Origin: a virus
Virus record (IMG/VR): IMGVR_UViG_3300050024_000062
Location: 1 to 42,401 of that record
Reading direction: 5' to 3' (one strand)
Length of the DNA stretch: 42,401 nt
Within the stretch, counting starts at the first letter, position 1. Each line of letters begins with the position of its first letter. Positions 9,757 to 35,014 of the stretch are shown here, one piece after another. Below the pieces are notes generated by a model. The model was not told the DNA's origin, did not search any database, and saw only the letters and a program-made list of their open reading frames with translations. The position numbers were made by a program, and so were the translations under genes.

Positions 9757-10821
9757 ATGAACATCGTCTTTCTCGCAAATCACTGCTGCATCCGGGTCCA
9801 AAAGATGGCGCTCCCTCTTATGGAAAAGGGGCACCACGTCCATCTCATTTCTCGGAAACTTCCCCATTACCACAGCAATTTTACCACCGTGACGTTGTGC
9901 GACCACGCCGGACAGTACATGGAGGCCATTAAGTTGCTGGCTCCCATTGCGGACCTGTTTCACTGCCACAACGAACCGTCGTATTACGTGACGATGGTAA
10001 AAGAGATCTGCGATAAGCCCGTCATCCTGGATGTGCACGATTCTTTCGCCGCCAGGTCGACCGCGGAGGAAGCAACCGAAAGGCTGGAAAATGGCCATAA
10101 CCACATCAGAATCACTACTGAGGAACGCAATAACTTTCAACTGGCCGACGGACTCGTTTTCCCGGCCTGGTCATTCGCAGAGGTCGTTAGAAAAGAATTC
10201 GGACTCACTCAACCTCATCTGGTACTTCCTTCCATGCTGCCGAGAAACTGGCATATCTACGACTGCGCGGAGTGGCTCGGCGGACTCGTCTATGAGGGCC
10301 GGGTCGATCTTAAAGCCGAAATCGCAAAGCATCCCGTTTCATCGGGCTTTAAGTATACGGACTATGAAGGACTCGCGCAAAAAGCTCAGGAAATAGGCCT
10401 GGACTTCCATCTCTACGCAGGCCGGGACGATAAACCCTACCTGAACACCTACGAGAAGATCTCCTTCACTCACGCCCCGCAGGAATACCCGAAGCTTTTG
10501 AAGTGTATTTCCCGGCATGATTGGGGACTTGTGGGCAACCTGGAATTTACCCCAGAATGGGACGTAGCCCTTCCGAACAAGCTTTTCGAGTATGTGGCAG
10601 CTTGCGTGCCGGTTGTGGCGATAAACGCCAAGGAATCGGCCGAGTTTATAGGGAAACACGGGATCGGCATCACGGTCAATTCCCTTGAAGGGCTTTGCGA
10701 AAGGTGGGGCGAGCATCGCCAGATACGTCAAAATCTCATCAAAATGAGGCCAAAACTCACTATGTGCGCACACATTCACGAACTTGAAGAGTTCTACGAT
10801 CAGGTGATAAATGGACGCTAA
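9757..10821 (+). CDS. Glycosyltransferase, GT4-like
   Basis: A 354-residue GT-B-fold glycosyltransferase. The N-terminal domain opens with MNIVFLANH and contains ADLFHCHNEPS (about 68-78), like the acceptor domain of GT4 enzymes. The C-terminal nucleotide-sugar domain carries the diagnostic segment LPNKLFEYVAACVPVVA (about 268-284). It probably transfers a sugar from a nucleotide-activated donor to a glycan, lipid or protein acceptor in the cytoplasm; donor and acceptor cannot be told. First gene of the cargo block, 8 bases after the terminator. It overlaps the following methyltransferase by 11 bases. Confidence 0.85.
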   Translation: MNIVFLANHCCIRVQKMALPLMEKGHHVHLISRKLPHYHSNFTTVTLCDHAGQYMEAIKLLAPIADLFHCHNEPSYYVTMVKEICDKPVILDVHDSFAARSTAEEATERLENGHNHIRITTEERNNFQLADGLVFPAWSFAEVVRKEFGLTQPHLVLPSMLPRNWHIYDCAEWLGGLVYEGRVDLKAEIAKHPVSSGFKYTDYEGLAQKAQEIGLDFHLYAGRDDKPYLNTYEKISFTHAPQEYPKLLKCISRHDWGLVGNLEFTPEWDVALPNKLFEYVAACVPVVAINAKESAEFIGKHGIGITVNSLEGLCERWGEHRQIRQNLIKMRPKLTMCAHIHELEEFYDQVINGR

Positions 10822-11407
10822 AGCCTATTGGAACGCGATTGCCCGCTCTGTTTGTGACCATGAGGCCGGAAATGTTCGCCATAACTGGCTTAAGAGCCAG
10901 GCGATCACCAAGTTCATGCTCGAATACCGCCTCGATCAGCGCAAGATACTCGAAATCGGAGTCGGAGCCGGGATCAACGCCGCGGCACTCTCAATCGCAT
11001 GCGGTGAGAACTTTGACTATCAAGGCGTGGACATCTCCCCGGTATTTGCAGCCTCAGCCAGGAAGTTTTTTGGTCTGCCCGTGAAGGTTTGCGAACTCGA
11101 TAAGATGCCGTTTCCAGACGATTCCTTCGATTATGTGATGGCCTTCGATGTACTCGAACACGTTCCGGTCAATGATCGACGATCTCTGTACATCGAACTG
11201 GATCGAGTCTTAAAACCTCGCGCAAAGTTTTTTATCAACAATCCTCTCGGGGAATCCCTGCACGATCCCAACTTCGATTTCAAATGGGGAGAATGTGATA
11301 TTTCAGGAGCTTGCGAACGCATGGGAATGCGAATTGAGCGGGTCCAGATGTATACGTGCCAACCGGGAACTCGTTATCAGTTCATCGTTTTGGGGAGGGG
11401 CTATTGA
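10811..11407 (+). CDS. Class I SAM-dependent methyltransferase
   Basis: A 198-residue Rossmann-fold methyltransferase of the Methyltransf_11 type. Motif I is ILEIGVGAG (46-54), the acidic ribose contact is in GVDIS, motif III follows as FDYVMAFDVLEHV, and ELDRVLKP matches the region after motif IV. Small-molecule methyltransferases of this type often methylate sugars in O-antigen clusters, and this gene lies between two glycosyltransferase genes, so a sugar or glycan substrate is the best inference. Overlaps the next gene by four bases. Confidence 0.88.
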   Translation: MDAKAYWNAIARSVCDHEAGNVRHNWLKSQAITKFMLEYRLDQRKILEIGVGAGINAAALSIACGENFDYQGVDISPVFAASARKFFGLPVKVCELDKMPFPDDSFDYVMAFDVLEHVPVNDRRSLYIELDRVLKPRAKFFINNPLGESLHDPNFDFKWGECDISGACERMGMRIERVQMYTCQPGTRYQFIVLGRGY

Positions 11408-12270
11408 AAGTTCAGATTGTAAATGACCTGCCGATGCAGTGGGAAGATGGATATCGCAAAGCGCTGGACGGCTATGATCAGGAATGGGTGAAGACTCCCC
11501 AAAATACCGGCAGTCTCGATGCCCGGATCTTCATGTGGTGTAGCGAGGACGCCGTAAAGTTTCAGCAGAGAAATTACGGACTGCCCACGCTTTGCTTCGT
11601 CAGGAGATATGAAGTCTATGCCGGTTTCGTCAATTACATGCCCTGGGATACGGTGGCGGAGATCGTCGTCGTAAACGATGTCATCGGTGAAATGGTCGAG
11701 CAGCTCGCCGGCAAAAAACCGCACGTCATCTACAATTCCATTATCCCCCAGCGTTGGACCTGGAAAGACCGTATCCCCGGCCCGAACGTAGCCATGGTGG
11801 GTTTTGTAAATCAGAAGAAGAACTTACCTCTTGCCCTGCAGGTCATGGCGTATCTGCCGGATGGCGTTTTGCACATCGCCGGTGAGATCCAGGATCCGCA
11901 GGTCATGGACTACGTGGTCAACCTGGCCAACTCGCTGAATGTTCAGGTCCGCTTCTACGGCGCCATTGCCCGCGATCACATGAATGAATGGCTCGACGAT
12001 AAGTCCTTTCTCATAAATCCGAGCATATCGGAGGGGTGTCCGAACTGTGTCCTTGAGGCCCTGGCCAAGGGGATAAGGCCCCTTGTCCATAACTGGCCTG
12101 GCGCAAGACAGCAATTCGGAGACCTGGTGTTTGACGGCGTAGACCAGGCCGTTCGAATGGCCGAGGCCTCAGATTACGACTCCCATTTCTATCGTCACCT
12201 GGCTGAAAAGCAATTCGGCGAGGCCAATTTCATGGAATTCCGGAGGGTTTTTGATGGGATCTTTGCCTAA
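11404..12270 (+). CDS. Glycosyltransferase, GT4-like (second)
   Basis: A 288-residue GT-B glycosyltransferase. The C-terminal domain shows VAMVGFVNQKKNLPLAL (start of the donor domain), LHIAGE, VRFYGAI and then the EX7E-type motif SEGCPNCVLEALAKG, all typical of GT4. The TTG start at 11404 is chosen because GGGGAGGGG lies just upstream and the reading begins with a beta strand MKVQIVND typical of the fold; the open frame extends up to 11356. It is shorter than usual GT4 enzymes (about 350-400), with a reduced N-terminal acceptor domain. Confidence 0.83.
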   Translation: MKVQIVNDLPMQWEDGYRKALDGYDQEWVKTPQNTGSLDARIFMWCSEDAVKFQQRNYGLPTLCFVRRYEVYAGFVNYMPWDTVAEIVVVNDVIGEMVEQLAGKKPHVIYNSIIPQRWTWKDRIPGPNVAMVGFVNQKKNLPLALQVMAYLPDGVLHIAGEIQDPQVMDYVVNLANSLNVQVRFYGAIARDHMNEWLDDKSFLINPSISEGCPNCVLEALAKGIRPLVHNWPGARQQFGDLVFDGVDQAVRMAEASDYDSHFYRHLAEKQFGEANFMEFRRVFDGIFA

Positions 12271-13132
12271 ATTCGTACTCATAGGGGCGGCGGGATACAT
12301 TGCTCCGAAGCACATGCAGGCGATAAAAGACTGCGGTGGGGATCTAGTCGCGGCCCTCGATCCTCACGAGTCGGTTGGAATCCTGGATAAGTTTTTCCCA
12401 GACTGCGAGTACTTCAATTCTGTCTGGCAGCTCCACAATTTCATTGATGAAAATCCCGTTGATTACGTATCCATTTGCAGCCCAACGGATAATCACCGCG
12501 TATCGGCGATAAACGGGATGCGATGGGGGGCTGACGTAATTTGTGAAAAACCACTTGTCTTGACGGTTGAAGAGCTGGAAACGCTTAGAAGGGTCGAGAT
12601 CCAGACCGGAAAACGCGTCTATACAATCCTGCAGCTCCGGTATCATCCGCTCATGGCCGAGATGAAGGCGGCGGCGCAGGGTAAGAATCACGAAGTCGAA
12701 ATCGACTACGCAACGCCTCGAGGCCGCTGGTATCACAATACCTGGAAGATCCGGCCTAATCAGTCCGGAGGGCTGGCGACCAATATCGGGATTCATCTTT
12801 TCGATACGGCAATCAACCTTTTCGGACCATCGGAGCGAGAACCCGAAATAACCCTGAACCTCGATGATGTTATGTCCGGAACACTCTACCTTCACCGGGC
12901 AACCGTGCGCTGGTCACTCTCGATCGATAGAGGTTGGAAGGCCCGACGCGTTTTTATGATCGATGGTAAAAACTTCGATCTGTCCAACGGATTTACAGAC
13001 CTTCATTCCGAGGTCTACCGGCAAGTGCTGGCTGGTAAAGGGACCGGGATTGACCATGTGGCGCCCTCGGTGCGCATGACTGAGACCTTGAGGGGACTTT
13101 CGAATGGACAATCTACCGCCCACTGTGCATGA
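12254..13132 (+). CDS. wlbA: WlbA/WbpB-like UDP-sugar 3-dehydrogenase
   Basis: A 292-residue Gfo/Idh/MocA oxidoreductase. GAAGYIAPKH (11-20) is the dinucleotide-binding loop of the WlbA/WbpB subgroup, EKPLV (98-102) holds the conserved catalytic-region Lys-Pro, and LQLRYHP, RGRWYHNTWK (156-165) and SGGLATNIGIHLFD closely resemble WlbA. Those enzymes oxidise the C3 hydroxyl of UDP-N-acetylglucosaminuronic acid for synthesis of diacetamido-uronic acids in LPS. The start at 12254 follows GGAGGG. It overlaps the acetyltransferase gene by 29 bases; in bacteria the two act in one pathway, separated by an aminotransferase step for which no gene is seen here. Confidence 0.85.
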   Translation: MGSLPKFVLIGAAGYIAPKHMQAIKDCGGDLVAALDPHESVGILDKFFPDCEYFNSVWQLHNFIDENPVDYVSICSPTDNHRVSAINGMRWGADVICEKPLVLTVEELETLRRVEIQTGKRVYTILQLRYHPLMAEMKAAAQGKNHEVEIDYATPRGRWYHNTWKIRPNQSGGLATNIGIHLFDTAINLFGPSEREPEITLNLDDVMSGTLYLHRATVRWSLSIDRGWKARRVFMIDGKNFDLSNGFTDLHSEVYRQVLAGKGTGIDHVAPSVRMTETLRGLSNGQSTAHCA

Positions 13133-13586
13133 GACGGCGATAGTTGATCATGGGTCTCACATAGGACCTGGAAGTAAAGTATGGCACTGGAGCCATATCA
13201 GTTCGGGGGTCTTTATCGGGGATAACTGCATGATCGGCCAGGGCGTCTTCGTCGGTGAGCAAGTCATGATCGGAAACGGTTGCAGGATTCAAAACGGAGC
13301 GCAGATCTTCACGGGAGTCACCCTTGAAGAGGACGTATTCATAGGACCGCACGTCGTTTTCACAAATGTGCTGTACCCAAGAGCGTTCAAGAGCCAACGT
13401 GATTCCTTCAAGAAAACTCTTGTCAAAAAAGGGGCAATGATCGGGGCCAATGCAACGATTCTTTGCGGGGTCACAATCGGAGGGGGGGCAATGATCGGGG
13501 CTGGATCGGTGATTACGAGGGACATCTCCCCCTTCGAGGTTGTGAGCGGGGCAAGTAAACATTTGAGATTCATATGGAAGGATTAA
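13104..13586 (+). CDS. wlbB: WlbB/WbpD-like sugar N-acetyltransferase
   Basis: A 160-residue left-handed beta-helix acetyltransferase with hexapeptide repeats. VWHWSHISSGVFIGDN, GQGVFVG, NGAQIFTGVTLEEDVFIGP and FTNVLYPRA correspond to the WlbB/WbpD subgroup, which acetylates the 3-amino group of UDP-GlcNAc(3NH2)A using acetyl-CoA. Later repeats (IGANATILCGVTIG, IGAGSVIT) complete the helix. The related FdtC/QdtC acetyltransferases for dTDP-amino sugars are an alternative; the WlbA-like neighbour favours WlbB. Confidence 0.86.
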   Translation: MDNLPPTVHETAIVDHGSHIGPGSKVWHWSHISSGVFIGDNCMIGQGVFVGEQVMIGNGCRIQNGAQIFTGVTLEEDVFIGPHVVFTNVLYPRAFKSQRDSFKKTLVKKGAMIGANATILCGVTIGGGAMIGAGSVITRDISPFEVVSGASKHLRFIWKD

Positions 13587-13588
13587 AA

Positions 13589-13882
13589 ATGGCAGCAGAA
13601 CTCGACAGGTCAAAGCAGTTTGGGCAGGTTTACGGGGTAGCGGGAGCATCCTTTGAGCAGGACGGCAAACTCTTCAACGGAAAAGGCCTTGAGGTAGCTC
13701 AAGAGATATACGACGAGGCAAATCAGGCGCCGGCCGATCCGATTGCACAACTAAAATCCGCCCTGGCCGAGCTGGGCATCACCGAGGTGACATCGGCGAA
13801 CAAAAAAGACGTTCTGGCGCTTCTGGCTCAGGTTGTTTCTGAACCCGAAGGTCAGGTTACCGACTCGGAGGTTTCCGCGTAA
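13589..13882 (+). CDS. Small protein with HeH/LEM-like C-terminus
   Basis: A 97-residue protein. The N-terminal half contains FGQVYGVAGASFEQDGKLF, a pattern seen in small phage proteins encoded near capsid or tail genes. The second half (IAQLKSALAELGITEV followed by ANKKDVLALLAQV) resembles a HeH/LEM-like fold. The start at 13589 follows GAAGGA with normal spacing; 13574 in frame is less well placed. It seems a misplaced structural gene inside the sugar block. Overlaps the next start by one base. Confidence 0.65.
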   Translation: MAAELDRSKQFGQVYGVAGASFEQDGKLFNGKGLEVAQEIYDEANQAPADPIAQLKSALAELGITEVTSANKKDVLALLAQVVSEPEGQVTDSEVSA

Positions 13883-14544
13883 TGTTGCCAGGATTTTGTA
13901 TGATATGCGCCTTCGAGATGGTCCATATTCTCGATGATCTTTGGGCGTGTCCCGAATGCAGTCTGGTCTCGAGCCAACTGCCGGCCGATATTTCGCGTTA
14001 CGATGAGGCATATCACGCCAAATATGAGGTATATGCCAAGACAGACCTCGGGAAAAAACTGACTCAGGCACGTTGGGACCTGGTCAAAAAGTACTTGCCA
14101 CATGGTGTTATCCTCGACTTCGGAAGCGGATCTGGACATTTTGCGCGGGAGAACCCAAACGGTGTGCATCGGGTGATTCAATACGACATCAATCCGTTTT
14201 CGAATAACTCAAGCGTAAGCACCCTGGATACCCGCGTCAATGCGGTGACTTTTTGGGATTCCTTGGAGCATGTGGAAGATCCTTATGATTTGCTCGATTA
14301 TCTCAGGCCCGAATTCATCTTCATGACTGTTCCGGATGCGTTCTCGATACCCACGCATTTCATGAAAAGCTGGAGGCATTACCGACGCGGGGAGCACGTT
14401 CACTACTTTTCTCGGCCTTCTCTTCGGAGACTCGCGGAGCGGTTGGGATATGCAATCCTGGAATTCTCAACAATGGAGGGCGACCTGAGAAGTCCGGAAG
14501 CTCCGGATTGGCTGCTCACCATGGCGGCGGAGAAGATCCGATGA
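13882..14544 (+). CDS. SAM methyltransferase with N-terminal zinc ribbon
   Basis: A 220-residue protein. The N-terminus has two cysteine pairs (C6 and C9, C23 and C26) typical of a zinc ribbon. The rest is a Methyltransf_23-like Rossmann domain: motif I ILDFGSGSGHFA, an acidic residue in QYDIN, and WDSLEHVEDP. The later HYRRGEHVHYFS segment is typical of class I methyltransferases found in polysaccharide clusters. A sugar or lipid-linked glycan substrate is likely given the neighbours. Start overlaps the previous stop as TAATG; stop overlaps the next start as ATGA. Confidence 0.83.
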   Translation: MLPGFCMICAFEMVHILDDLWACPECSLVSSQLPADISRYDEAYHAKYEVYAKTDLGKKLTQARWDLVKKYLPHGVILDFGSGSGHFARENPNGVHRVIQYDINPFSNNSSVSTLDTRVNAVTFWDSLEHVEDPYDLLDYLRPEFIFMTVPDAFSIPTHFMKSWRHYRRGEHVHYFSRPSLRRLAERLGYAILEFSTMEGDLRSPEAPDWLLTMAAEKIR

Positions 14545-15650
14545 AAACCGCAGTCGTTGTTCGATATGGTGGAATTGGAGATATGTTCCAGGCATCTTCC
14601 GTTCTGCCCGGCCTGAAGGCCCAGGGGTATCGAGTGGTAATGAACACGACACCATCGGGGCAGGAAGTCCTTAAGCACGATCCGCACATAGACGACTGGA
14701 TCATCCAGCAACCCGGGGAAGTGGCAAGAGAGAAGCTGAGCGATCATTGGCGCTACATCTCCGAGCGGTGCGATAAGTTCATAAATCTTTCTGAAACGGT
14801 TGAAGGGGTCCTTTATCCCACCGTGGAAAGGGCCGCTTTCTACTGGCCCAAAGACGCCCGACATTTCTTGTGCGACATAGACCAGGTGCATTTGACTCAC
14901 CTGGTGGCCGGTGTTCCACCCGGACCATGCTACAGGTTCTACGCCACGCCAAAAGAGCAGAAATGGGCGTTCAAGATCCGGAAGCGCATGGGCGGTAAAG
15001 TCATCCTCTGGGTCCTTTCCGGATCGTCGGTACATAAGGTTTGGCCTTACCTGGACCAATGCATTGCCAGGATCATGCTCAGGCTGCCGGATGTGAAAGT
15101 GGTCCTGGTGGGTGAGGAGCTGGCGCAGATACTCGAGATGGACTGGAAAAACGAACCTCGCGTAATCGGCAAGTGCGGCAAATGGTCGGTGAGAAAGACT
15201 CTGGCCTTTGCCCACGAAGCGGACCTGGTTATCGGCCCCGAAACCGGCGTCCTTTACGGGATGGGTTTACAGAAAGTTCCAAAGATCGTAACGCTGTCTC
15301 ATTCTTCGATGGAAAATCTGTATAACCACTGGCGAAACGTGGTGGCGTTAATGCCTGAAGCCTGTGAGTGCTATCCGTGCCACCGGCTGCACAACAGCTT
15401 TGATTTCTGCCACAGGGACGAGGAAACCGGCGTCGCGCTCTGCCAGGCCAAGATAAGCCTCGATGCCATGTGGGACGCCATAAAATTTGTAATGGAGAAA
15501 ATAGGTGAGAAAAATAACGATCTCTCTTCTGGTTTTAGCCGTGCTGGTCTTGCTGACGATTCCGGCGCTTGCCGGCGGCCCCTACCTGGTTGCGACTCCG
15601 GTAACGGGAGCAACATCATACAATGTGCAGGGCCTTCCAGCGTCGATTAA
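14541..15650 (+). CDS. GT9-like (heptosyltransferase family) glycosyltransferase
   Basis: A 369-residue protein. MKTAVVVRYGGIGDMFQASSVLPGL is the N-terminal signature of the GT9 heptosyltransferase family, and ADLVIGPETGVLYGMGLQKVP corresponds to the family's conserved D-x-GP-TG-x-H region, though the usual His is replaced by Leu-Tyr. GT9 enzymes add heptose to the LPS inner core. A Cys-rich segment (EACECYPCHR) follows. The last 48 residues overlap another gene in a different frame and look unlike the family, so the functional part probably ends near FVMEKIG. Start chosen by ATGA coupling and an upstream GGAG. Confidence 0.8.
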   Translation: MKTAVVVRYGGIGDMFQASSVLPGLKAQGYRVVMNTTPSGQEVLKHDPHIDDWIIQQPGEVAREKLSDHWRYISERCDKFINLSETVEGVLYPTVERAAFYWPKDARHFLCDIDQVHLTHLVAGVPPGPCYRFYATPKEQKWAFKIRKRMGGKVILWVLSGSSVHKVWPYLDQCIARIMLRLPDVKVVLVGEELAQILEMDWKNEPRVIGKCGKWSVRKTLAFAHEADLVIGPETGVLYGMGLQKVPKIVTLSHSSMENLYNHWRNVVALMPEACECYPCHRLHNSFDFCHRDEETGVALCQAKISLDAMWDAIKFVMEKIGEKNNDLSSGFSRAGLADDSGACRRPLPGCDSGNGSNIIQCAGPSSVD

Positions 15651-18805: not shown

Positions 18806-20206
18806 ATGCCCTCAGCTTCAATGATCGGCGCCATGTACCGGCCAAGAGATGTAAGTTACCCGAATTGCAACTGGTGGTTCGATACCATCCAGGCCGGCCA
18901 AGACGTAAAGGAGCGGCTGTATCGGACGCCCGGGCTCGCTCTTTTTGCGGATACGGGTGTTAACTCCGAAACCAGAGGTATTAAGGTCCCGGCAAACGAT
19001 CCGAATTACATGTACGCAGTGGTAGGAAACCGGGCGTTCAGGATCGATGCGCTTGGGAATATCTTTACGGCTACCGGAAATCTTTCAATCGTTTCCGGCC
19101 ACGTGCAGATGGAATCAAACGGCGTTCAACTCATGATCATTGACGATCAGGGTGGATATATTTTCGATTTTGCGACCCTTGTCCTAACGCAGATCACCGA
19201 TATTGACTTCTCGATCACAAAGGGCACCCTGACGTATCAGGACGGCTATTTTATCTATACCGATGGGGAGATTTTTGCTCTTTCCAGTCTCTATGACGGA
19301 ACGCAATGGTCATCCCTGGACATGGCTCAGGCCGAAGGATGGCCGGACCCGATACTTGCCGGGCTCTCGGATCACCGGGAACTCTGGCTTTTCGGGACCG
19401 AGACAACCGAAATCTGGATGGATACCGGGGCGTCCACGTTTCCTTTTGAGCGAGTCGCCGGCGGATTTATCGAAGAAGGACTGGGCGCACGGTTCGCGTA
19501 TGCAAAGCTCGATAATACCGTCTGCTGGTTGTCTAACCATCGCACGATCCTGCGCGCTTCCGGGTATACCCCCGCAAAGATCAGCCCTGATTGGCTTGAC
19601 TGGGAAATTTCCCGGATGAGCACCGTAGATGACGCTTTTGCCTTCAGCTACGTCCTGGCCGGGTCATACATGCTGGATATTACTTTTCCCTCCGCCGATA
19701 AGACCTTTTTTTACAATGCCAAAACGGGACTCTGGCATCGAAAATCAAGCGGCGTGGACGGAGGCAGACACCGGGCGAACTGTTACGCCTATTTCCAGAA
19801 AAAGCATTACGTGGGCGATGCTCAGACCGGTAAAATATACGAAATGAGCATGAACGCCTTAGATGATGCCGGGGATCCCATCAGGCGCGTCTGGACGTTT
19901 CCCAATATCTCCAGCCAGAACGATTATCTGATTTATCACAGTGAGGTGGCAATAGAGTTCAAGCCCGGGATCGGCCTGGAAGACGGCTCGATTCCCTATG
20001 CGGAACTGTGCTGGTCTGAAGGCCTGGAATCTACCTGGAAGGCTCCAAGGAAGCGAAACGTGGGCGCCGTTGGCGATTATGATCGCCGTACGAAGTGGCA
20101 GCAATTGGGAGCGTCTCGGAATAGAACGTACCGGTTGACGGTTTCAGATCCGGTCGACTGGGAAGTGCGTGATTACCGGCCGAACTACTCGGAGGGGACC
20201 TCCTGA
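18806..20206 (+). CDS. P22 gp10-like tail hub / DNA stabilisation protein
   Basis: A 466-residue protein of the size of P22 gp10 (472). The sequence is mostly beta with blade-like repeats and conserved phrases (DHRELWLFGTETTEIWMDTG, FERVAGGFIEEGLGA, CWLSNHRTILRASGY) matching gp10-type tail hubs. Gp10 forms the six-fold hub that closes the portal channel and carries tailspikes. Neighbours on both sides agree with the P22 order. Confidence 0.86.
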   Translation: MPSASMIGAMYRPRDVSYPNCNWWFDTIQAGQDVKERLYRTPGLALFADTGVNSETRGIKVPANDPNYMYAVVGNRAFRIDALGNIFTATGNLSIVSGHVQMESNGVQLMIIDDQGGYIFDFATLVLTQITDIDFSITKGTLTYQDGYFIYTDGEIFALSSLYDGTQWSSLDMAQAEGWPDPILAGLSDHRELWLFGTETTEIWMDTGASTFPFERVAGGFIEEGLGARFAYAKLDNTVCWLSNHRTILRASGYTPAKISPDWLDWEISRMSTVDDAFAFSYVLAGSYMLDITFPSADKTFFYNAKTGLWHRKSSGVDGGRHRANCYAYFQKKHYVGDAQTGKIYEMSMNALDDAGDPIRRVWTFPNISSQNDYLIYHSEVAIEFKPGIGLEDGSIPYAELCWSEGLESTWKAPRKRNVGAVGDYDRRTKWQQLGASRNRTYRLTVSDPVDWEVRDYRPNYSEGTS

Positions 20207-20721
20207 TGGCCCAGTTAGCCAAACATCCCCGGACACCCATGCTGGATAAAGCCGGAAATCTCACAAGGGAGTGGAGCGATTGGTTTACCCTGAAGGTGAC
20301 CATTCCCATTTCCGATAATACCGTGGCCATTGATCAGAAGGCCAATCCGATTACGGGCAGCTCCGGGCATTTCGTCGTCCTGGATGCGGACGGCCAGGCG
20401 CTGGACGGAGGAGATAATCCCGATCTGACCCATCTTCAGCACGATCACAGCTCGGTTGTGAAAGGTGGAACCCTTCCTCCGCTAGGCGGGGGCACATTCC
20501 CGCTATCGGCAGCGGTGGCGACGACGGTCCCCGATACGGCCATAACCGCGAATTCCTTTATTGCGATTTTTCCGACCAACGCGGCGGCGGCCACACTCAT
20601 GGGAAGCGCTAAGAGCTTGTACGAATCAGCAAGGGTCGCGGGAGCGTCTTTTACCGTCAGTACGGCAAGTGGTGTGGCGGCGGCCGGGACTGAGACTTTC
20701 GAATATGTGAGGATTGGATGA
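20206..20721 (+). CDS. Putative tail appendage or needle-position protein
   Basis: A 171-residue protein occupying the place of P22 gene 26 (tail needle), but the sequence does not look like a long coiled coil. The N-terminus HPRTPMLDKAGNLTREWSDWF is a motif common at the start of phage tail proteins that dock on a tail hub, and the C-terminal part is beta-rich and Ala/Gly/Thr-rich. I read it as a small tail appendage. The start overlaps the previous stop by one base; the stop overlaps the next start. Confidence 0.7.
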   Translation: MAQLAKHPRTPMLDKAGNLTREWSDWFTLKVTIPISDNTVAIDQKANPITGSSGHFVVLDADGQALDGGDNPDLTHLQHDHSSVVKGGTLPPLGGGTFPLSAAVATTVPDTAITANSFIAIFPTNAAAATLMGSAKSLYESARVAGASFTVSTASGVAAAGTETFEYVRIG

Positions 20722-21206
20722 TGCCGTACTTAAAACCTTTGAGCCCAAATGATTACGCCCTGCTTTATCCGATAATCACGGCGAACGAGCCTTTCGCGGA
20801 AAAAACGAGTCTGCAGGCCATGGTTCTGGCGCTTGCCCAGCAGGAAGGCTGGACCGTTTGGGATGGGGATAAAATCATAGGCGTAATTTCTCTTTCAAAT
20901 TTCCGAGTGCTCCACAGCGTCATGATACATGTCGTCCTGGATAAGGCATACATTCGCAAATGGGCATCCCGTCAAATGGTGCGTCAGGTCTTTCATTATC
21001 TTTTCAGCCCCGATCTGCTCGACCTGGTGAAAGTCTATTCCTATGCCATTCCTGGAGTCACGACGGACGTAGAAAGACAATTGGAGCAATTGGGATTTAA
21101 GGAAGAGGGCATCGATAGGAAGGGATTTGTAGCTCCGAACGGCGAATGCTTCGACATGGTGAACTACTCGATGCTCAAAGAGGAATGCAAATGGATAAGA
21201 AAATAA
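20718..21206 (+). CDS. GNAT-fold protein in P22 gene 14 position
   Basis: A 162-residue protein with a GNAT acetyltransferase layout: an N-terminal strand-helix (LKPLSPNDYALLYPII), the central strands WTVWDGDKIIGVISLS and SVMIHVVLDKAYIRKW, a helix after the acetyl-CoA strand, and a C-terminal EQLGFKEEGIDRKGFV typical of GNATs. The usual Q/R-x-x-G-x-G/A pyrophosphate loop is not clear. P22 gene 14, in the same place, belongs to a related family (DUF2824) needed for head assembly or ejection, so a structural rather than enzymatic role is possible. Confidence 0.72.
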   Translation: MMPYLKPLSPNDYALLYPIITANEPFAEKTSLQAMVLALAQQEGWTVWDGDKIIGVISLSNFRVLHSVMIHVVLDKAYIRKWASRQMVRQVFHYLFSPDLLDLVKVYSYAIPGVTTDVERQLEQLGFKEEGIDRKGFVAPNGECFDMVNYSMLKEECKWIRK

Positions 21207-22195
21207 CGTTCGCCTTCTGGCCTCTATATGTCCATTGGAGTAACGCCGTAGCCCAGCTCTCAGCCGTATGCAAGAAGCGCGGCATCGAGGTCGACGTGGT
21301 AATGCTCGATGCATATCCAGACCCTGCAGATTTTGCCCCCGGTTCGGATCTTGTCGGCTTTAGCTGTGTCACGGCCCACGATTACCGGAAATGCATTCCT
21401 TACATGAGGAGGGCTAAAAAGCTCGGCAAGACGGTGCTCCTCGGTGGGGTGTGGGCCTCCCTTGGCCACGAGGTTGACTGTTGTGTCGATCTGGTGTGCC
21501 GGGGAGATGGTGAAGGTCTGCCCGATTTCATCCTGGAAGGCGATGAAACCATATTCCAGAAAGCTTGCGTCACAAAAGACCTGAACGCAATACCCCTTAT
21601 GGACTACGGCCTTCCGATGGTCTTTGATCGCCTGGTACCTCCCTTCGGGACCGATCCGGCCCTCATCTATGTCAGCAGCCGGGGTTGTCCAAATTGCTGC
21701 ATCTTCTGTCAAATTCAATGGCAACACCCAGGACAACGGATCAGAACAACGGTCGCAAAAGACCTGCGCAAACTCACGAAGATTCATAAACCGGCTGGAA
21801 TCTACTTCGGAGACGCGCTTTTGCCTTACGGATCGAAGGCGTGGCGTGATTCCTGGGGAGATTTCAGGTACCCATTTACCGGGTACATTCGGGCCGATAT
21901 TCAGCCCGCAGAACTCGAATGGCTGATCGATCGGGGAATGATGGGGTGTGCGTTCGGCATTGAAACGGGCGATGAATGGTACAGAAACCAGATCCTCGCC
22001 AAGGGCATCACCGATGCTCAGATATACGAGACGGTAAAAAGACTCAAGACTCACAATATCTGGTTCATGTCGTTTTTCATGGCCGGGCTTCCAAGCGAAA
22101 CATGGACCATGCTTACTCGCTCGGCGAAGATGATCCGCGCCATTGGGGGCGAAACAGCTATCTGGAAATACGAAGATCTGGCCATCGCGGAATAA
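21191..22195 (+). CDS. Radical SAM protein with B12-binding-like domain
   Basis: A 334-residue protein. Residues 1-130 form a Rossmann-like domain as in B12-binding radical SAM enzymes (DLVGFSCVTAHDY, KTVLLGGVWAS, DLVCRGDGEG), but the DxHxxG cobalamin-ligating motif is not seen. The radical SAM domain has the cluster motif C166-x3-C170-x2-C173, then a GIYFGDALLPYG strand and CAFGIETGD (253-261), typical of this class. The start at 21191 follows GAGGA. Such enzymes do radical methylations or rearrangements on lipids, sugars or cofactors. It is embedded between tail and ejection genes. Substrate unknown. Confidence 0.88.
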   Translation: MDKKITFAFWPLYVHWSNAVAQLSAVCKKRGIEVDVVMLDAYPDPADFAPGSDLVGFSCVTAHDYRKCIPYMRRAKKLGKTVLLGGVWASLGHEVDCCVDLVCRGDGEGLPDFILEGDETIFQKACVTKDLNAIPLMDYGLPMVFDRLVPPFGTDPALIYVSSRGCPNCCIFCQIQWQHPGQRIRTTVAKDLRKLTKIHKPAGIYFGDALLPYGSKAWRDSWGDFRYPFTGYIRADIQPAELEWLIDRGMMGCAFGIETGDEWYRNQILAKGITDAQIYETVKRLKTHNIWFMSFFMAGLPSETWTMLTRSAKMIRAIGGETAIWKYEDLAIAE

Positions 22196-22207: not shown

Positions 22208-23116
22208 ATGGGCGCTACGACGGCAGTAATGGCAGGGGTAGGAGCACTCGGTGTAGGCGCAAGTCTTTTCGGGTCATCGAAAGCGGCCGATGCTCAGCTT
22301 CAGGCGGCAAACAGTGCCGCAGCGGTCCAGACAAACGCGCTTAATTTTCAAAAGCAGCAATACAATACGACCCTTCAGAACCAGCAGCCGTGGTATCAAA
22401 CGGGTGTCAATGCGCTTTCGCAGATAAACGAGCTTATGGGGCTGCCCTCGCCATCGTCGGGTACTTACAACTCTTACGCCCAGCTCGGTCCCGCCCCTAC
22501 TCAAATGCCGGGGGAGACTCGGAAGGCTTTCAAAGCAAGACAACTCGCGTATACCCAGCAGTCGTTGGGTCTTCAGAAAAATGCGCTTATTTCGGGCGAA
22601 AGCGGCGGATCGGCGACACCGAATACCTCGACCGCTCTTGCAACGCTTCAGCAGACTCCCGGCTATCAGTTCCGCATGGATCAGGGCATGAACGCTCTCG
22701 ACCGTACGGCTGCAGCCCAGGGAAACCTGATGTCCGGAGGGCACACGAAAGATGTTTTGAACTACGCCCAGGGTTTGGCGAGCGATGAGTACACAAACCA
22801 ATTCAACCGGCTGGCCACCCTTTCCGGATTCGGCCAGACGGCGAATCAGACAAACGCGGCAACGGGTGTCTCCACCGGAACAAATGTCGGGAATACGAGC
22901 AATAATCTTGCCCAGAACGCCCTTTACGCCGGGAACGCCTCCGCGAGTCAGTACATTAATTCTGCGAACGCTATAAACGGCGGGATAAACGCTTATCAGA
23001 ACTACAATATGTACAACAACATGACGAACGCGCTCGCTGCCGGCAAGCAGCAAGCTCAGGCGAGTCCACCATCTTCGGGCGATATGTCGGTTTATTATCC
23101 CTGGTACACAGGCTGA
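22208..23116 (+). CDS. Ejection protein, P22 gp7-like
   Basis: A 302-residue Ala/Gln/Asn/Gly-rich protein. It begins with a hydrophobic glycine-rich stretch (AGVGALGVGASLFGSSKAA) and has the conserved phrases TPGYQFRMDQGMNALDRTAAAQGNLMSG (split by length here) and YTNQFNRLATLSGFGQ found in gp7-type DNA-transfer proteins of P22-like phages. These are packaged in the head and ejected first to help DNA cross the envelope. First of three ejection genes in P22 order. Confidence 0.82.
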   Translation: MGATTAVMAGVGALGVGASLFGSSKAADAQLQAANSAAAVQTNALNFQKQQYNTTLQNQQPWYQTGVNALSQINELMGLPSPSSGTYNSYAQLGPAPTQMPGETRKAFKARQLAYTQQSLGLQKNALISGESGGSATPNTSTALATLQQTPGYQFRMDQGMNALDRTAAAQGNLMSGGHTKDVLNYAQGLASDEYTNQFNRLATLSGFGQTANQTNAATGVSTGTNVGNTSNNLAQNALYAGNASASQYINSANAINGGINAYQNYNMYNNMTNALAAGKQQAQASPPSSGDMSVYYPWYTG

Positions 23117-23124
23117 GGTGAGAT

Positions 23125-24426
23125 ATGAACGCTTTGCAGATTCCGGATCTTAATACGAACTATGGGCCTGATTATGGGAAGATCGCGACGGCGGCCAACG
23201 CGGTGGGGCAAAACGCATTACTTCGCATGCAGCTCCAACAGCAGCAGGGAACGATGGATGCCATGCAGAATGTAAACGGCGTCGAGGATCTGCCTGGGGC
23301 GGCCATAAATGTAATGAAAGTAAATCCCACTGCCGGGATGGGAATGCTTGGCAGTCTCGCCACTATGCAAAAATCAGGAGTAGATATCCAGCACACGCAA
23401 GCCGAGACGATGAAGACCAACCTGGATAACGCTTCGAAGGCCATTGATTTTGTAGCGGCGAATCCTCAGTCCTATCCACAGGTATGGCAGAAGTATTCAT
23501 CGGCGGGCGTGAATTTGCCTCATCCTTCGACCTTTGCCGACGATGCCGGGAATATGGACCCGGCAAAGCTCACTCCGTTTCTGACCAAGGCAAAGCAGTC
23601 TCTTGCCTCATATGAAGATCAGATCAAGGCGCAAACGCCTACCATCCACGAGATACAGGTAGGTGGCAATAAGCAGCCGGTCAGTGTCATGCCGGGGCAG
23701 GGGGCAGGTGGAATTCAGCCGATGGGACCAGGTGGCCCGGCCTGGCAACCAAAACAGGAACTCAAAGAAACGCTCGACCCAACAACGGGAAAACCTACTT
23801 ACACCTGGACCACTCCGCCTCAGCCGGGCGCGACAGGACCGGCGGGTGGCAACGCACAAACGGGGCTCGGGGTATACAATCCGGCTGAGGCCAATAGGCC
23901 CTTTACGAACGAACAGACGCTGAGGACACAGTTTGAAAAGCAGGCTGAGCCTTTTGTGAAGATGCGGGACGAGTATTCGAATATCCAGAGTCTGGCGGCG
24001 AAGGGGAGTCCCGAGAGCGACCAGGCCCTTATGTTTTCATGGATCAGGATGTTTAATCCGAGAATCACACAAACCGAACTTGAGTCAACCGAAAAGGCGC
24101 GCGGAGTGCCTACGCCCCTTTGGGTATTATACAAAAAAGTATACTCCGGAGAGTCCTTAACCCCAGCCCAACGCCAAGATATTGTGAATTCTGCCGGTCA
24201 AGTCTACCAAAGTCACTTGTCTAACCATGAATCGCTTGAGAACGAGTACAAACAAACCGCCCAAAGCTACAATCTTAATCCCGACAGGGCGGTCCCGAAT
24301 TTGAAGATTCAGCCCAATTCTGCGAATTATAAAAGTGTGGGGGATGTACAGGCCGCCTATAAGGCCGGCCAATTGCCCTACGATCAGGCGAAACAGATAT
24401 TAAAGACGCAATTTGGGGTTGATTAG
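23125..24426 (+). CDS. Ejection protein, P22 gp20-position
   Basis: A 433-residue soluble protein, Gln/Ala/Pro-rich, with long helices at both ends and a Pro/Gly-rich middle (about 195-255). Position between gp7-like and the transglycosylase-bearing gp16-position protein, and the length (P22 gp20 is 471), support an internal virion/ejection protein. The C-terminus (SVGDVQAAYKAGQLPYDQAKQIL) is like the short helical repeats often found in virion proteins. The stop overlaps the convergent opposite-strand gene by four bases. Confidence 0.75.
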   Translation: MNALQIPDLNTNYGPDYGKIATAANAVGQNALLRMQLQQQQGTMDAMQNVNGVEDLPGAAINVMKVNPTAGMGMLGSLATMQKSGVDIQHTQAETMKTNLDNASKAIDFVAANPQSYPQVWQKYSSAGVNLPHPSTFADDAGNMDPAKLTPFLTKAKQSLASYEDQIKAQTPTIHEIQVGGNKQPVSVMPGQGAGGIQPMGPGGPAWQPKQELKETLDPTTGKPTYTWTTPPQPGATGPAGGNAQTGLGVYNPAEANRPFTNEQTLRTQFEKQAEPFVKMRDEYSNIQSLAAKGSPESDQALMFSWIRMFNPRITQTELESTEKARGVPTPLWVLYKKVYSGESLTPAQRQDIVNSAGQVYQSHLSNHESLENEYKQTAQSYNLNPDRAVPNLKIQPNSANYKSVGDVQAAYKAGQLPYDQAKQILKTQFGVD

Positions 24427-24671
24427 AAACTTGATTTTACGAAACGAACGATGGGAAATATGAAGATTACAATAAATATGGTCATGGCAGCCGCCACAAG
24501 CAGGTCTATGCCAATCCACATGGAAGCACCCGCAATCACGTTAAAGACCAGTTCATACTTTGAATGTGAGTCTGCTATCCATAGGGAAAGAAGGTCTCGG
24601 AGGGGTATCCAAAAGAGGGCGAACAGAAGTACGAAGATGCCAGTGTATAGACCGAAGATTTTGTTTAGCAT
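24423..24671 (-). CDS. Small membrane protein, opposite strand (second of pair)
   Basis: An 82-residue hydrophobic protein with two membrane helices (about residues 8-32 and 45-76) separated by a short polar loop (IADSHSKYEL). It overlaps the upstream gene of the pair by seven bases, so both are probably coupled from the promoter at 24900-24927. Codons run against the late operon, a sign of an inserted moron gene. P22 carries its sieA exclusion gene, also a membrane protein on the opposite strand, in this neighbourhood of the late genes; an exclusion role here is inferred. Confidence 0.72.
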   Translation of the reverse strand: MLNKIFGLYTGIFVLLFALFWIPLRDLLSLWIADSHSKYELVFNVIAGASMWIGIDLLVAAAMTIFIVIFIFPIVRFVKSSF

Positions 24672-24874
24672 GATGGGTCTCTTTGTATCCAGTGCCCGAT
24701 GGACGGAATGCCAAGCAGAAGGCAGAAGATCGCTCCGGCTAGTAAGATCGGGACCAGGAGCAGCGGTACAATCGAGATAATAGAATGGCGACCTTCGGGC
24801 AATATGAAATAGGGAAACAGAAGGTAAATGGAAAATAAGAGAAAAGTGTACAGTCGAACAGCTCTATTTCTCAT
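24665..24874 (-). CDS. Small membrane protein, opposite strand (first of pair)
   Basis: A 69-residue protein with two hydrophobic helices (about 8-25 and 32-55), a positively charged N-terminus (MRNRAVR) and a polar C-terminus. The start at 24874 follows an excellent GGAGGAGGAG ribosome site. With the gene at 24423-24671 it forms a two-gene unit that interrupts the ejection genes on the other strand, with its own promoter. No family recognised; a lysogenic-conversion or superinfection-exclusion role is plausible. Confidence 0.75.
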   Translation of the reverse strand: MRNRAVRLYTFLLFSIYLLFPYFILPEGRHSIISIVPLLLVPILLAGAIFCLLLGIPSIGHWIQRDPSC

Positions 24875-24899
24875 AGTCTCCTCCTCCAAGGATTTGCAT

Positions 24900-24927
24900 A
24901 GTTTAGAACAGCTTTTTACTCTGTCAA
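24900..24927 (-). promoter_or_regulatory. Promoter of the opposite-strand membrane-protein pair
   Basis: On the minus strand, a perfect -35 box TTGACA (24927-24922), a 16-base spacer and a -10 box TAAACT (24905-24900, four of six). It ends about 25 bases before the start at 24874. It would allow expression in a lysogen while late genes are off. Confidence 0.65.
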
Positions 24928-24939
24928 GGATAAATTGAA

Positions 24940-27687
24940 ATGGATGCAGCCGATCTTTTGCTTGGCGATAGTGGTGCGAGTCCCCAGCCTTCACCGACGG
25001 CCACCTCAGATGATTACGTCCAAAGCTTAGGATTCCCGCTAGGTTTTACCCCGAAGGGCGAGCACTACGAAGCCCTCGTTCCCGCAATCGAGGACGCGTC
25101 AAAAGAAACCGGGGTTCCCGCAAATCTCATCCGGGGTGTGGTCTGGAAGGAATCCATGTTTCACCCCGATGTGGTCTACGGGAAAAAAGTAGGCGACTCA
25201 GGCGACTCCGGAGCCATGCAGCTTATTCCTCCCACCGCCAAGGCCATGGGAGTAAAAAATGTATTCGATCCAGCCTACAACATCATGGGGGGTGCGAAAT
25301 ATTTAGCCTCCCTTCATGACGAACTTGGAGATTGGAGTAAGGCGGCAGCGGCTTACAATTCGGGAGGTGCTCACAGGTTCTTTCTCAATAATCCTGACGC
25401 CTCTGCAGAGCAAGCCCCGAATTATGATTCTTATGTTCGGCCCGTTCTTTCAGCCGCTTATAAATTCGGGAAAAATGCCGTTGCGCCGACCGAAGCACAG
25501 GCGGCCGAAACTCCTCCAGCGAAGGTTTCCGCCGACGATCTCCTTTTAGGGAACGCCACATTGCCGGACCAACCGGCAGCCGCTCCCGCAGACCAGCAAC
25601 CGGGCAAGGTCTCCGCCGATGATCTTTTGAAGGGGACAACTCCCGCGCCCGCACCGCAAGCCATTCCTCCCAATGCGCCCGATTGGGCGAAGGATCACCC
25701 TGACGCGTATTGGAACGCCGTCAAAACGATAAATAGCCTCGATATGCCGGGAGATATGGCGGCTTTGACCGCAGGGGCGAAGATTGGAGCCACCGGAGGT
25801 GCAGCCCTTGCAGCTCCTACGGTTGTGGGCGCTCCAGTCGGGGCACTCGCGGGAGGCGTAGCAGGGGCAGGTCTTGCCTATGCCATTAAGCAATATGGAA
25901 TGGACGCGGTGAAGCAATACTTGGGCATGGATAAGCCTTACGATCTGCCGGAGGGCATTGCAAAGGGAATTGGGAATGTAATGAGCGGCGCGACAATGGA
26001 GGCCGGAGGCGGTGTTGTCGGGAAAGGCCTTGAAGTTGCGGCGGCCGGCGTGGGTAAAGCTGTAAGTCTGCCTGCATCAGGTATAAGAAAATATTTCGGT
26101 TCCATTGAAAATCCGGTCTCTGGCCTCACGCCAGGGCAGCTCGCAGAAGACTATAGTGCATTTGGTCTTGACCCTATGGCCGGAGCCCTCACACAAAATA
26201 AGGCTACTCAGGGACTTCAAAATGCCCTTGCCAAAATGGGCGGATCGGCGAAAGTCATCCAGGAACAAGCGGATGCGAACCTTGCGAAATTGGGCGATAA
26301 GGTTCAGGGCATCGCTGAAAGCTTTACCGGTTCGGGACCCGAAGATCTTAAGGCGAATAATATCAAGCCCTCCGGTGAGCAGCTCGGGGACTTCGTTCTC
26401 AATAAAGCCGCAGAAATCGGCGACAGATTCAAAACTACAGCCGGGCGCGTCTTTTCGAACGTCGATTCCAGGATCGGAGACCTTCCCGCCAAAGCCGACA
26501 ACCTCCAAGCATGGATTGACGACAGGGCCAGTCAACTTTCTCCGGAGGCTGCTACAAACTTCAGAAAACTGGTTTCCAAATGGACGGATCCGATATTGCA
26601 GGATGCGGCGGCAGCCCCTCCCCCCATCAAAGTGGGAGGCCAGACCATCACAAGGGACACCAATCCCGGGCTTTATGACAGTATCGTGAAAAGCAATCCC
26701 GATCTGGCAAGCGGGGAAACAGGAGGCGGTCTCAACTTCAGATCTCTTCGTTACTGGCGAACCCAGATAGATGAAAAGCTTGGTAATCCCCTCATTGCAG
26801 ACACGGATACCGCAACCAGGGGAATGCTGAAACAGATTCGAAACCAGATCACAGCGGACATGGATGCCTCGGCTACCGAGGGAGGGCCGGAGGCGATAAG
26901 AGCTTTCAAGGGCGCAGATGCCTGGTATTCTCAGCAAAAAGATGTAATGGGCCGCATCGAAAAACTTGTAGGAAGCGGTGACGTAGATCGGATAGGAAAC
27001 GCAGTTCTGAATCCCAGCGTGCCGCCTCAATCTTTAAGGGCGCTTCGGACGAAAATGGATCCGGAAGACTGGGATGTAGTGTCCGGGACCATATTTTCAA
27101 AACTCGGCATCGCAAAACCGGGAGCGCAGAACGTTGCTGGGGATGTCTTCAGTCCGAACACTTTCATGACCAATTGGAGCAAGCTCTCCCCGGAAGCAAA
27201 ACAGGTCCTATGGGGCGGCACAAGATATTCGGAGTTGACTCCCGAACTCGACCGCGTTGCTCGCGTATCGGCCTCCATGAAAGACGCCGCGAGCATGGCC
27301 AATACCTCGAATACCGCACCGGTGGGCATGTGGATGCGGCTTATCGGAGGTCTGGGTACGGCGGGTTATGGGACTATGACCGGCAATAAGACAATGGAAG
27401 GAATGGGGGCGGGAGTTGCCGGAAGCGTGGTTGCACCTTATGCCGTTGCAAAGCTCATGACTAATCCGCGCTTCGTGGGATGGCTTGCCAGGACAGGTGA
27501 GGATATGCTTTCGCAACCTACCGTTCAGGCCACGCAAGAAACGCTTTCCAAATCGTTCGGAAGGCTCGTTACTGTAGCAAAAGGAAATCCGAATATAGGC
27601 CCGGATGTCTATTCTTACCTTCACTCTCTATCCGACTCGGCTAAGCAAGAACAAAACCCGTCCGAACCGATGCCGGTAGCTCCATAG
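24940..27687 (+). CDS. Ejection protein with lytic transglycosylase domain (gp16 position)
   Basis: A 915-residue internal virion protein. Residues about 45-150 are an SLT/GH23 transglycosylase: catalytic E71 in VWKESMFHP, then SGAMQLIPPTAKAMGV, NIMGGAKYL and AAAAYNSGG. It would open peptidoglycan during DNA entry. The motif DLLLG with preceding acidic residues recurs three times (ADLLLG near 4-9, SADDLLLG near 197-204, SADDLLKG near 225-232). A Gly/Ala-rich hydrophobic segment (about 275-330) could enter a membrane. P22 gp16 is 609 residues and has no such obvious domain; T7 gp16 does carry one. Starts 13 bases after the opposite-strand promoter. Confidence 0.85.
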   Translation: MDAADLLLGDSGASPQPSPTATSDDYVQSLGFPLGFTPKGEHYEALVPAIEDASKETGVPANLIRGVVWKESMFHPDVVYGKKVGDSGDSGAMQLIPPTAKAMGVKNVFDPAYNIMGGAKYLASLHDELGDWSKAAAAYNSGGAHRFFLNNPDASAEQAPNYDSYVRPVLSAAYKFGKNAVAPTEAQAAETPPAKVSADDLLLGNATLPDQPAAAPADQQPGKVSADDLLKGTTPAPAPQAIPPNAPDWAKDHPDAYWNAVKTINSLDMPGDMAALTAGAKIGATGGAALAAPTVVGAPVGALAGGVAGAGLAYAIKQYGMDAVKQYLGMDKPYDLPEGIAKGIGNVMSGATMEAGGGVVGKGLEVAAAGVGKAVSLPASGIRKYFGSIENPVSGLTPGQLAEDYSAFGLDPMAGALTQNKATQGLQNALAKMGGSAKVIQEQADANLAKLGDKVQGIAESFTGSGPEDLKANNIKPSGEQLGDFVLNKAAEIGDRFKTTAGRVFSNVDSRIGDLPAKADNLQAWIDDRASQLSPEAATNFRKLVSKWTDPILQDAAAAPPPIKVGGQTITRDTNPGLYDSIVKSNPDLASGETGGGLNFRSLRYWRTQIDEKLGNPLIADTDTATRGMLKQIRNQITADMDASATEGGPEAIRAFKGADAWYSQQKDVMGRIEKLVGSGDVDRIGNAVLNPSVPPQSLRALRTKMDPEDWDVVSGTIFSKLGIAKPGAQNVAGDVFSPNTFMTNWSKLSPEAKQVLWGGTRYSELTPELDRVARVSASMKDAASMANTSNTAPVGMWMRLIGGLGTAGYGTMTGNKTMEGMGAGVAGSVVAPYAVAKLMTNPRFVGWLARTGEDMLSQPTVQATQETLSKSFGRLVTVAKGNPNIGPDVYSYLHSLSDSAKQEQNPSEPMPVAP

Positions 27688-31377: not shown

Positions 31378-31860
31378 TCACGGGTTCCACTCCTCGACCT
31401 CGAATCTATCTCTGCACGCTCGGCACTGGATATCGCCACGGACATTTGCCGGGTTGTCTGTGACGGGAATCTTCGCGCCGCATTCGCAGCACAAGTTGTC
31501 GCAAAATTCTATTTCCGTCTCCATCTGTCCCGGATCGATCTCGACGCTGTAAATACCCAATGATCCCTTGACCGGGAAAGGACGCCTCAGCTTGCGCACG
31601 TTCCTCAACTCCCATGCCCAGGCCCTTGGATACAATTCACAACCCGCTGCCCCTTCGTCGGCTTTCGTCATCCGCCTGCATCGAACCAGCTCCGCGATGC
31701 ACAGCGCGAAACCAGCTGGCGGGATGTTGGGTTTCTTGCTTGAACAAATCAAAACATCTCCTCTGTAATCCGTCGCCCAGGTCCGGGTTTCGATAGTCTT
31801 CACTCCGCGGTAAATCATCGAAGCCCATGGCCGCTTTACTGAGATCGCTTTAACTTCCAT
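31378..31860 (-). CDS. ASCH-domain protein with C-terminal zinc ribbon
   Basis: A 160-residue protein. Residues 1-110 match the ASCH (PUA-like) domain: ISVKRPWASMIYRGVKTIETR, DYRGDVLICSSKKP, ALCIAELVRCR and AWELRNVRKLRRPFPVKGSLGIYSV. ASCH proteins bind RNA or act on nucleosides, and phage members are common but poorly characterised. The C-terminus holds cysteine pairs (CCEC and CRAC) forming a probable zinc ribbon. A strong GGAGGGGAGAGG ribosome site precedes the start. Position in the recombination operon gives no further hint. Confidence 0.82.
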   Translation of the reverse strand: MEVKAISVKRPWASMIYRGVKTIETRTWATDYRGDVLICSSKKPNIPPAGFALCIAELVRCRRMTKADEGAAGCELYPRAWAWELRNVRKLRRPFPVKGSLGIYSVEIDPGQMETEIEFCDNLCCECGAKIPVTDNPANVRGDIQCRACRDRFEVEEWNP

Positions 31861-34790: not shown

Positions 34791-35014
34791 AGCGCCGCCG
34801 TCCAGCCCTGCATTTCGGCAAATAAGCGGTTGAGCGTATCCGTCGTATGATCCATCACCGTCACATCCGGAACGATTTCCTGTAATCGAAGCGTCCGGTT
34901 ATGTTCGCAACGTCTACACTGGATCATAATCTTGCCTTTGTATGCCGAGGTGATACGTAGATCGTCCCCGCGTCCTCCGCATGGGCAAACGATATCAATC
35001 ATTGCCTTTGTCAT
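34787..35014 (-). CDS. Zinc-ribbon protein, Com-like
   Basis: A 75-residue protein with the pairs CPC (residues 10-12) and C-x2-C (QCRRCEHNRTLRL), a zinc ribbon reminiscent of Mu Com-type or transcription-factor-like small proteins. AGGAGA precedes the start, which overlaps the pentapeptide-gene stop (ATGA). Probable nucleic-acid binding, function not known. Confidence 0.68.
   Translation of the reverse strand: MTKAMIDIVCPCGGRGDDLRITSAYKGKIMIQCRRCEHNRTLRLQEIVPDVTVMDHTTDTLNRLFAEMQGWTAAL

Follow-up and report, generated by a model that had tools for sequence, protein, structure and literature searches.

A compact cobalamin-type radical SAM enzyme family encoded beside the DNA-ejection genes of podoviral contigs

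Cobalamin-type radical SAM enzymes and the phage protein

The described enzymes that most resemble the phage protein reported here combine a cobalamin domain with a radical SAM barrel. MgmA (9ccb, TIGR04014) is a methanogen enzyme serving one protein; it is a B12 enzyme without a lower ligand, which methylates a protein glutamine and has a cleft that fits an extended peptide (PMC11796369). AprD4 (6fd2, NF033070) is a radical SAM diol dehydratase whose substrate is an aminoglycoside, paromamine (PMC5461906). According to PMC13331322, OxsB, TsrM and TokK bind cobalamin base-off without a His ligand, and the loop after strand 3 supplies the class 1 residue under the cobalt, which is not necessarily His. 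Both MgmA and the solved class 1 enzymes continue into a C-terminal domain. A radical SAM and a GNAT domain stand within one protein in Elp3. In Streptomyces phage SF3, the B12-binding radical SAM protein gp36 (about 499 aa) is encoded beside thymidylate kinase and NUDIX genes.

We analysed the window, that is, the whole 42,401-base stretch forming the complete IMG/VR virus record IMGVR_UViG_3300050024_000062. Its radical SAM frame is open on the + strand from 21146 to 22195 (stop codon 22193-22195), and ATG 21191 is the likely start, being closely preceded by AGAGGA and agreeing approximately with the N-termini of the homologues. Read from there, the gene (21191-22195, +) encodes an intact, compact B12-type radical SAM enzyme of 334 aa. 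Its N-terminal part (about residues 1-109; 21191-21517, +) is a predicted cobalamin-type Rossmann domain, delimited by the Pfam B12-binding match (residues 18-109) and the structural model, with landmarks at GG 85-86, GDGE 105-108 and the loop after strand 3 (residues 59-64). The radical SAM barrel occupies about residues 157-326 (21659-22168, +; secondary structure of the model) and holds the [4Fe-4S] motif C166-x3-C170-x2-C173 (21686-21709, +), which is invariant in a 34-row alignment, an invariance informative in the family rows only because most of the wider rows came from a motif search. The window protein exceeds the cut-off of Pfam Radical_SAM (PF04055; 2.6e-7, 31.4 bits against 29.5) and stays below that of Pfam B12-binding (3.9e-6, 27.1 bits against 32.1). 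The initial annotation had proposed a full-length radical SAM protein with Cys at exactly these three positions, which holds. The B12-type domain that it had seen is likewise borne out by the predicted Rossmann domain and by full-length fold matches to OxsB, TsrM, CysS and TokK.

Searching PHROGs at E 1e-3, we found no family for the protein (best match phrog_26379 at 0.047), nor any match for its L112 homologue. The codon usage of the gene is weakly phage-typical (0.08 bits per codon, a low value). The frame is more than a chance one, since it has homologues at 49-53% identity, a dN/dS of about 0.14 and a confident predicted fold (pLDDT 92.8).

Performing AlphaFold2 prediction on the 34-row alignment, we obtained a model with pLDDT 92.8 and pTM 0.90; an earlier three-row model (pLDDT 57.7) was set aside. 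The alignment comprises the window protein and proteins from viral contigs, the distant rows coming mostly from a radical SAM motif scan (among the matches listed) and being filtered by score and coverage; the near-copies L097 and L134 were excluded. The model consists of a cobalamin-type Rossmann domain and a radical SAM barrel. In VIA-align 2, the Z values were 27.1 for AprD4, 25.1 for OxsB, 23.9 for TsrM, 23.8 for MgmA, 21.9 for MiaB, 21.2 for CysS, 20.8 for RimO and 16.6 for TokK. These matches span about 290-330 residues, while other radical SAM enzymes reach a Z of about 12 and match in the barrel only. AprD4 is the nearest fold in both fold-comparison programs (328 aa, 14% identity; profile match 7.9e-8). 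MgmA, which like the family has a Rossmann cobalamin domain and a barrel, superposes with an rmsd of 3.1 Å over 298 aa at 17% identity. The two-domain core of OxsB, TsrM, TokK and CysS matches almost the whole model, and the sequence alignment with CysS covers profile positions 6-215. Elp3 structures, in contrast, match mainly in the barrel, and the phage radical SAM and GNAT proteins are encoded by two separate, overlapping genes.

None of the equivalog cut-offs was reached by the window protein: TIGR04013 (37.4 bits against 251), PhpK (TIGR04479; 36.3 against 600), MgmA (TIGR04014; 29 against 360), HpnJ (TIGR03471; 26.6 against 577.6) and AprD4 (NF033070; 15.4 against 500). The five intact proteins of the family described below all match the TIGR04013, PhpK, Sden_1168, ApyD, HpnJ, rSAM_ladder and MgmA models, and four of the five match that of AprD4. 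The profiles pick no chemistry because enzyme families acting on lipid, phosphorus, peptide and protein match about equally.

In the model, the window protein ends at the last barrel strand, with no C-terminal domain after it, unlike MgmA and the solved class 1 enzymes. In comparison, 40 distant viral B12-type radical SAM ORFs (among the matches listed) run a median of 78.5 residues past this end (range 27-327). We therefore treat the proteins as a compact family of their own rather than as standard class 1 members. The loop after strand 3 reads CVTAHD, and T61, aligned by reading with the CysS loop, takes the position of the residue under the cobalt; the five family members have T, T, T, T and H there (His in L112), unlike the class 1 enzymes. 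Elsewhere in the Rossmann domain, G86 is conserved in 34/34 rows, G105 in 32/34 and E108 in 33/34. The initial annotation had noted an apparent loss of the cobalamin-ligating motif. Losing a DxHxxG-type ligand does not argue against cobalamin binding, because OxsB, TsrM and TokK bind B12 without a His ligand (PMC13331322) and MgmA has no lower ligand (PMC11796369).

Family members, searches and selection

With the window protein alone as query, no relative was found in viral contigs or genomes, and none among phages at E 1e-5. The reading of an isolated acquisition was dropped once looser two-row alignment patterns, and then a fragment alignment, recovered a family in pattern scans of a 2.9-million-contig viral collection. 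Five further viral contigs carry the radical SAM gene in the same slot, intact in L094, L107, L109 and L112 and internally deleted in L108, bringing the family to six contigs with five intact genes. Over at least 96% of the length, the intact proteins are 53% (L094), 49% (L107) and about 50% (L109 and L112) identical to the window protein. The homologue search in phage tail modules suggested by the initial annotation was thus productive, and the isolated case against which it had warned did not materialise. It had also raised the loss of cluster Cys residues in close relatives: these are invariant in 5/5 intact members, but L108 has lost the whole core. There, L108:9995-10279 joins the N-terminal ~80 residues in frame to the last residues, and the GNAT start is still overlapped; this is either a real deletion or an assembly error. 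All members are metagenome contigs, and L094 and L108 share the sample code 3300033405.

Of the four intact relatives, only L107 falls slightly under the Radical_SAM cut-off (27.2 bits). For B12-binding (cut-off 32.1), L094 scores above (39.4 bits) and L109 (27.7) and L107 (26.0) below; no value was reported for L112.

No family member was found among 50,697 phage records or 72,556 plasmid records, in scans that may omit records very close to the window; the named phages and plasmids gave just distant matches at 22-29% identity. SF3 gp36, for example, is 27-29% identical over part of the protein, and its gene lies outside an ejection slot. Two scans of host genomes gave no relative, an absence from bacteria that is weakly tested because L109 and L112 themselves do not carry the patterns of the second scan. 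In the literature, judged mainly by titles and with paywalled work mostly outside the scope, we found no title dealing with radical SAM genes located in the tail or ejection modules of phages.

For L094 and L107, the closest pair, the radical SAM dN/dS is 0.144 (dS 1.44), other pairs being near or at dS saturation; on these substitution rates, the family is under purifying selection. In the tree, the five intact proteins form one clade (support 100/100, stem 1.98) against 29 distant viral rows, and the long-branch warning applies to the outside neighbour of the clade. In summary, the family is a real, podoviral, compact variant of the cobalamin-type radical SAM enzymes, and our searches of named collections gave no member of it.

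A second radical-SAM-like ORF lies between coat and tail genes at L112:3973-4917. It has a CxxxCxxC near its start, matches a PapB-like model at 2e-5 (below cut-off) and adjoins ORF 3200-3976.

The late-gene slot and the GNAT partner

The late genes of the window run from an adaptor through head closure Hc3 (P22 gp10-like; 18806-20206, +; phrog_578 6.2e-87), a small tail protein in the needle position (20206-20721, +), a GNAT acyltransferase (20718-21206, +; phrog_4470 6.3e-13, phrog_1249 3e-4) and the radical SAM gene to a P22 gp7-like DNA-ejection protein (22208-23116, +; phrog_598 7e-34). A second virion protein of the ejection block, with its role taken from position (23125-24426, +; phrog_13634 1.6e-17), a transglycosylase virion protein with an SLT domain (24940-27687, +; Pfam SLT 7e-20) and a tail fibre follow. 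The needle-position protein resembles the phrog_34100 tail protein in its C-terminal part and is 41% identical over 129 aa to the product of the L112 gene in the equivalent place. The GNAT and radical SAM frames overlap by 16 nt. Terminator and promoter scans gave sites no more frequent than in shuffles, so the operon structure rests solely on gene overlap and spacing.

The placement of the gene between a GNAT-like gene and the ejection gene, as first annotated, is correct. The accompanying claim that P22 has nothing there stands only for the radical SAM gene, as P22 gene 14 is flanked there by needle gene 26 and ejection gene 7. Gene 14 (L242:8911-9366) is in the equivalent place and about the size of a GNAT gene; its identity as a GNAT is not supported, as three profiles gave E 0.03-0.1 and a fourth no match (each against a single-sequence database).

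Two small hydrophobic ORFs at 24423-24994 (-) separate the transglycosylase gene from the second gene of the ejection block. They possibly include a superinfection-exclusion gene, by analogy with P22 sieA, which is on the minus strand and directly follows the ejection genes. The window phage looks temperate from its gene content, as an integrase, an S24-type repressor and Erf are encoded, and its early region also holds a pentapeptide-repeat protein (35014-35829, -) and an ASCH-domain protein (31381-31860, -). A radical SAM gene does not imply the anaerobic host setting initially suggested, and we found nothing else in the window that points there.

Comparing the six contigs, we find that the radical SAM and GNAT frames overlap by 4-16 nt in all of them. 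The order is Hc3, needle, GNAT, radical SAM and ejection in the window, L109 and L112, and neck, GNAT, radical SAM and ejection in L094. The radical SAM gene precedes the GNAT gene in L107 (neck, radical SAM, GNAT, ejection) and in L108 (Hc3, tail gene, radical SAM remnant, GNAT, ejection). The window, L109 and L112 have Hc3, GNAT and ejection proteins in common; L108 shares Hc3 and an ejection gene with them. The neck proteins of L094 (phrog_511) and L107 differ from the Hc3 type and are 68% identical to each other. After the ejection block, the contig of L094 (G001, 51 kb) carries a 2,694-aa ORF (41781-49862, reversed orientation).

Between the window and L112, identity is 50% for radical SAM, 45% for GNAT, 30% for Hc3 and 28% for the first ejection protein; against L109, the values are 49%, 35%, 32% and 31%. 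The radical SAM protein thus diverges less than the products of the adjacent genes, consistent with strong constraint or with a later spread of the gene. The GNATs of the family form two sets without detectable pairwise likeness, both of which reach phage acetyltransferase PHROGs: phrog_4470 for the window and L109, and phrog_1249 for L094, L107, L112 and, weakly, the window.

We also examined P22-like loci, keeping 80 out of at least 577 relatives; 57 of the 80 show Hc3 and then an ejection gene. No radical SAM gene was found in these loci (0/80). The gene is therefore dispensable, being absent from all 80 relatives and deleted in L108. A GNAT gene occupies the slot in 13/57 relatives lacking radical SAM at first pass and in 17/57 after iteration. 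The difference from the 6/6 contigs with GNAT beside radical SAM gives a Fisher p of 0.0015, a value that ignores relatedness and imperfect detection. The gap from Hc3 to the ejection gene ranges from 807 to 6469 nt among the 57. In phage Atu_ph08, a window-type GNAT gene directly precedes virion protein genes, with no radical SAM gene.

A sugar cassette lies in the window at 9757-15650, after the coat/decoration genes and before the tail genes, with GT4-like, methyltransferase, glycosyltransferase, Gfo/Idh/MocA oxidoreductase, hexapeptide sugar acyltransferase (NeuD-like, below cut-off) and second methyltransferase genes; its ORF 14508-15650 looks GT9-like by eye. The distant B12-type radical SAM genes L146:5359-6621 and L193:3007-4242 lie in sugar cassettes as well (neighbours judged by eye), that of L193 adjoining ORFs that resemble siphovirus late genes.

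Proposed function and alternatives

We tentatively propose, at less than even confidence, that the enzyme carries out a radical modification of a polypeptide, most likely a C-methylation, with the GNAT sharing its target or its pathway. The enzyme would be made late and would bind a [4Fe-4S] cluster, SAM and a host-derived corrinoid. The segment receiving this radical mark, probably a methyl group, may belong to a host protein or to one of the ejection or tail proteins that the same operon encodes. Four points, each weak alone, make us read the substrate as a protein: the lack of a C-terminal domain, the position in the ejection operon, the GNAT as partner and the precedent of MgmA. In the model, the open barrel without a substrate-binding domain of its own fits a macromolecular better than a small substrate, and the gene context speaks for joint action with the GNAT. 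The narrower idea that the overlapping genes form a dedicated two-enzyme system, placing a radical mark and an acyl group on an ejection or tail protein of the phage itself during assembly, is in our judgement rather unlikely. It is very improbable that the two would act as one enzyme, a split analogue of Elp3 in which the GNAT brings acetyl-CoA chemistry to the radical site.

Other substrates have to be weighed against a polypeptide, the initial annotation having named a virion protein, a nucleotide or the host envelope as possible targets. The radical SAM enzyme, perhaps with the GNAT, could instead alter a sugar or lipid of virion glycans or of the host envelope, for example by C-methylation or deoxygenation, acting with the 9757-15650 genes and changing receptor or immunity. 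The position of the cassette between coat and tail genes agrees with this, as do AprD4, the nearest fold, acting on paromamine (PMC5461906), and the sugar cassettes around L146 and L193, the best-scoring distant viral relatives among the matches listed. The radical SAM gene, however, lies about 5.5 kb from the cassette, in overlap with the GNAT gene and next to the ejection genes, and no counterpart of the cassette was detected in G001. We first worked with a link to the sugar cassette and demoted it, as PF13692 matched in only one of the six contigs (the window) and PF00535 in none, several of these contigs being short fragments. We keep the sugar reading, at a rather low probability, because most of the contigs are fragments and three ORFs judged glycosyltransferase-like by eye (L112 3200-3976, L109 1947-2804 and window 14508-15650) lack an informative Pfam match.

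Host takeover or counter-defence, in which the two enzymes, late in infection or on entry, would change a protein, tRNA or metabolite of the host and leave the virion unmodified, also appears unlikely to us. RimO, which modifies a ribosomal protein, and MiaB, which modifies tRNA, are among the full-length fold matches. There is also a phage precedent in Rac, a GNAT encoded in overlap with the first structural gene, which triggers cleavage of the host RNA polymerase alpha subunit (PMC7552054). Genes inside a structural operon, however, are probably made late for a takeover, and the window-type GNAT of Atu_ph08 directly precedes virion proteins. A laterally gained passenger without a stable phage role, sitting in a tolerant late-operon slot, would explain why the gene is rare (0/80 Hc3 relatives examined), why it is internally deleted in L108 and why the distance from Hc3 to the ejection gene is so variable (807 to 6469 nt). 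We consider this quite improbable in view of the dN/dS of about 0.14 for L094 and L107, the invariant cluster residues of the five intact members, and the single clade with the same kind of partner in 6/6 contigs.

Modification of a polypeptide, together with the GNAT, is the reading that we carry forward. A B12-type radical enzyme that phages encode in a fixed slot by the DNA-ejection genes, beside a recurrent partner, becomes directly testable, and for structural work the family offers a compact representative, minimal at its C-terminus, of a difficult class of enzymes. If the target is a host molecule, an oxygen-sensitive, B12-dependent enzyme would be added to late infection. If it is a virion protein, a radical-chemistry step would enter phage virion maturation, and a dedicated two-enzyme system, if true, would mean radical SAM modification of a virion protein.
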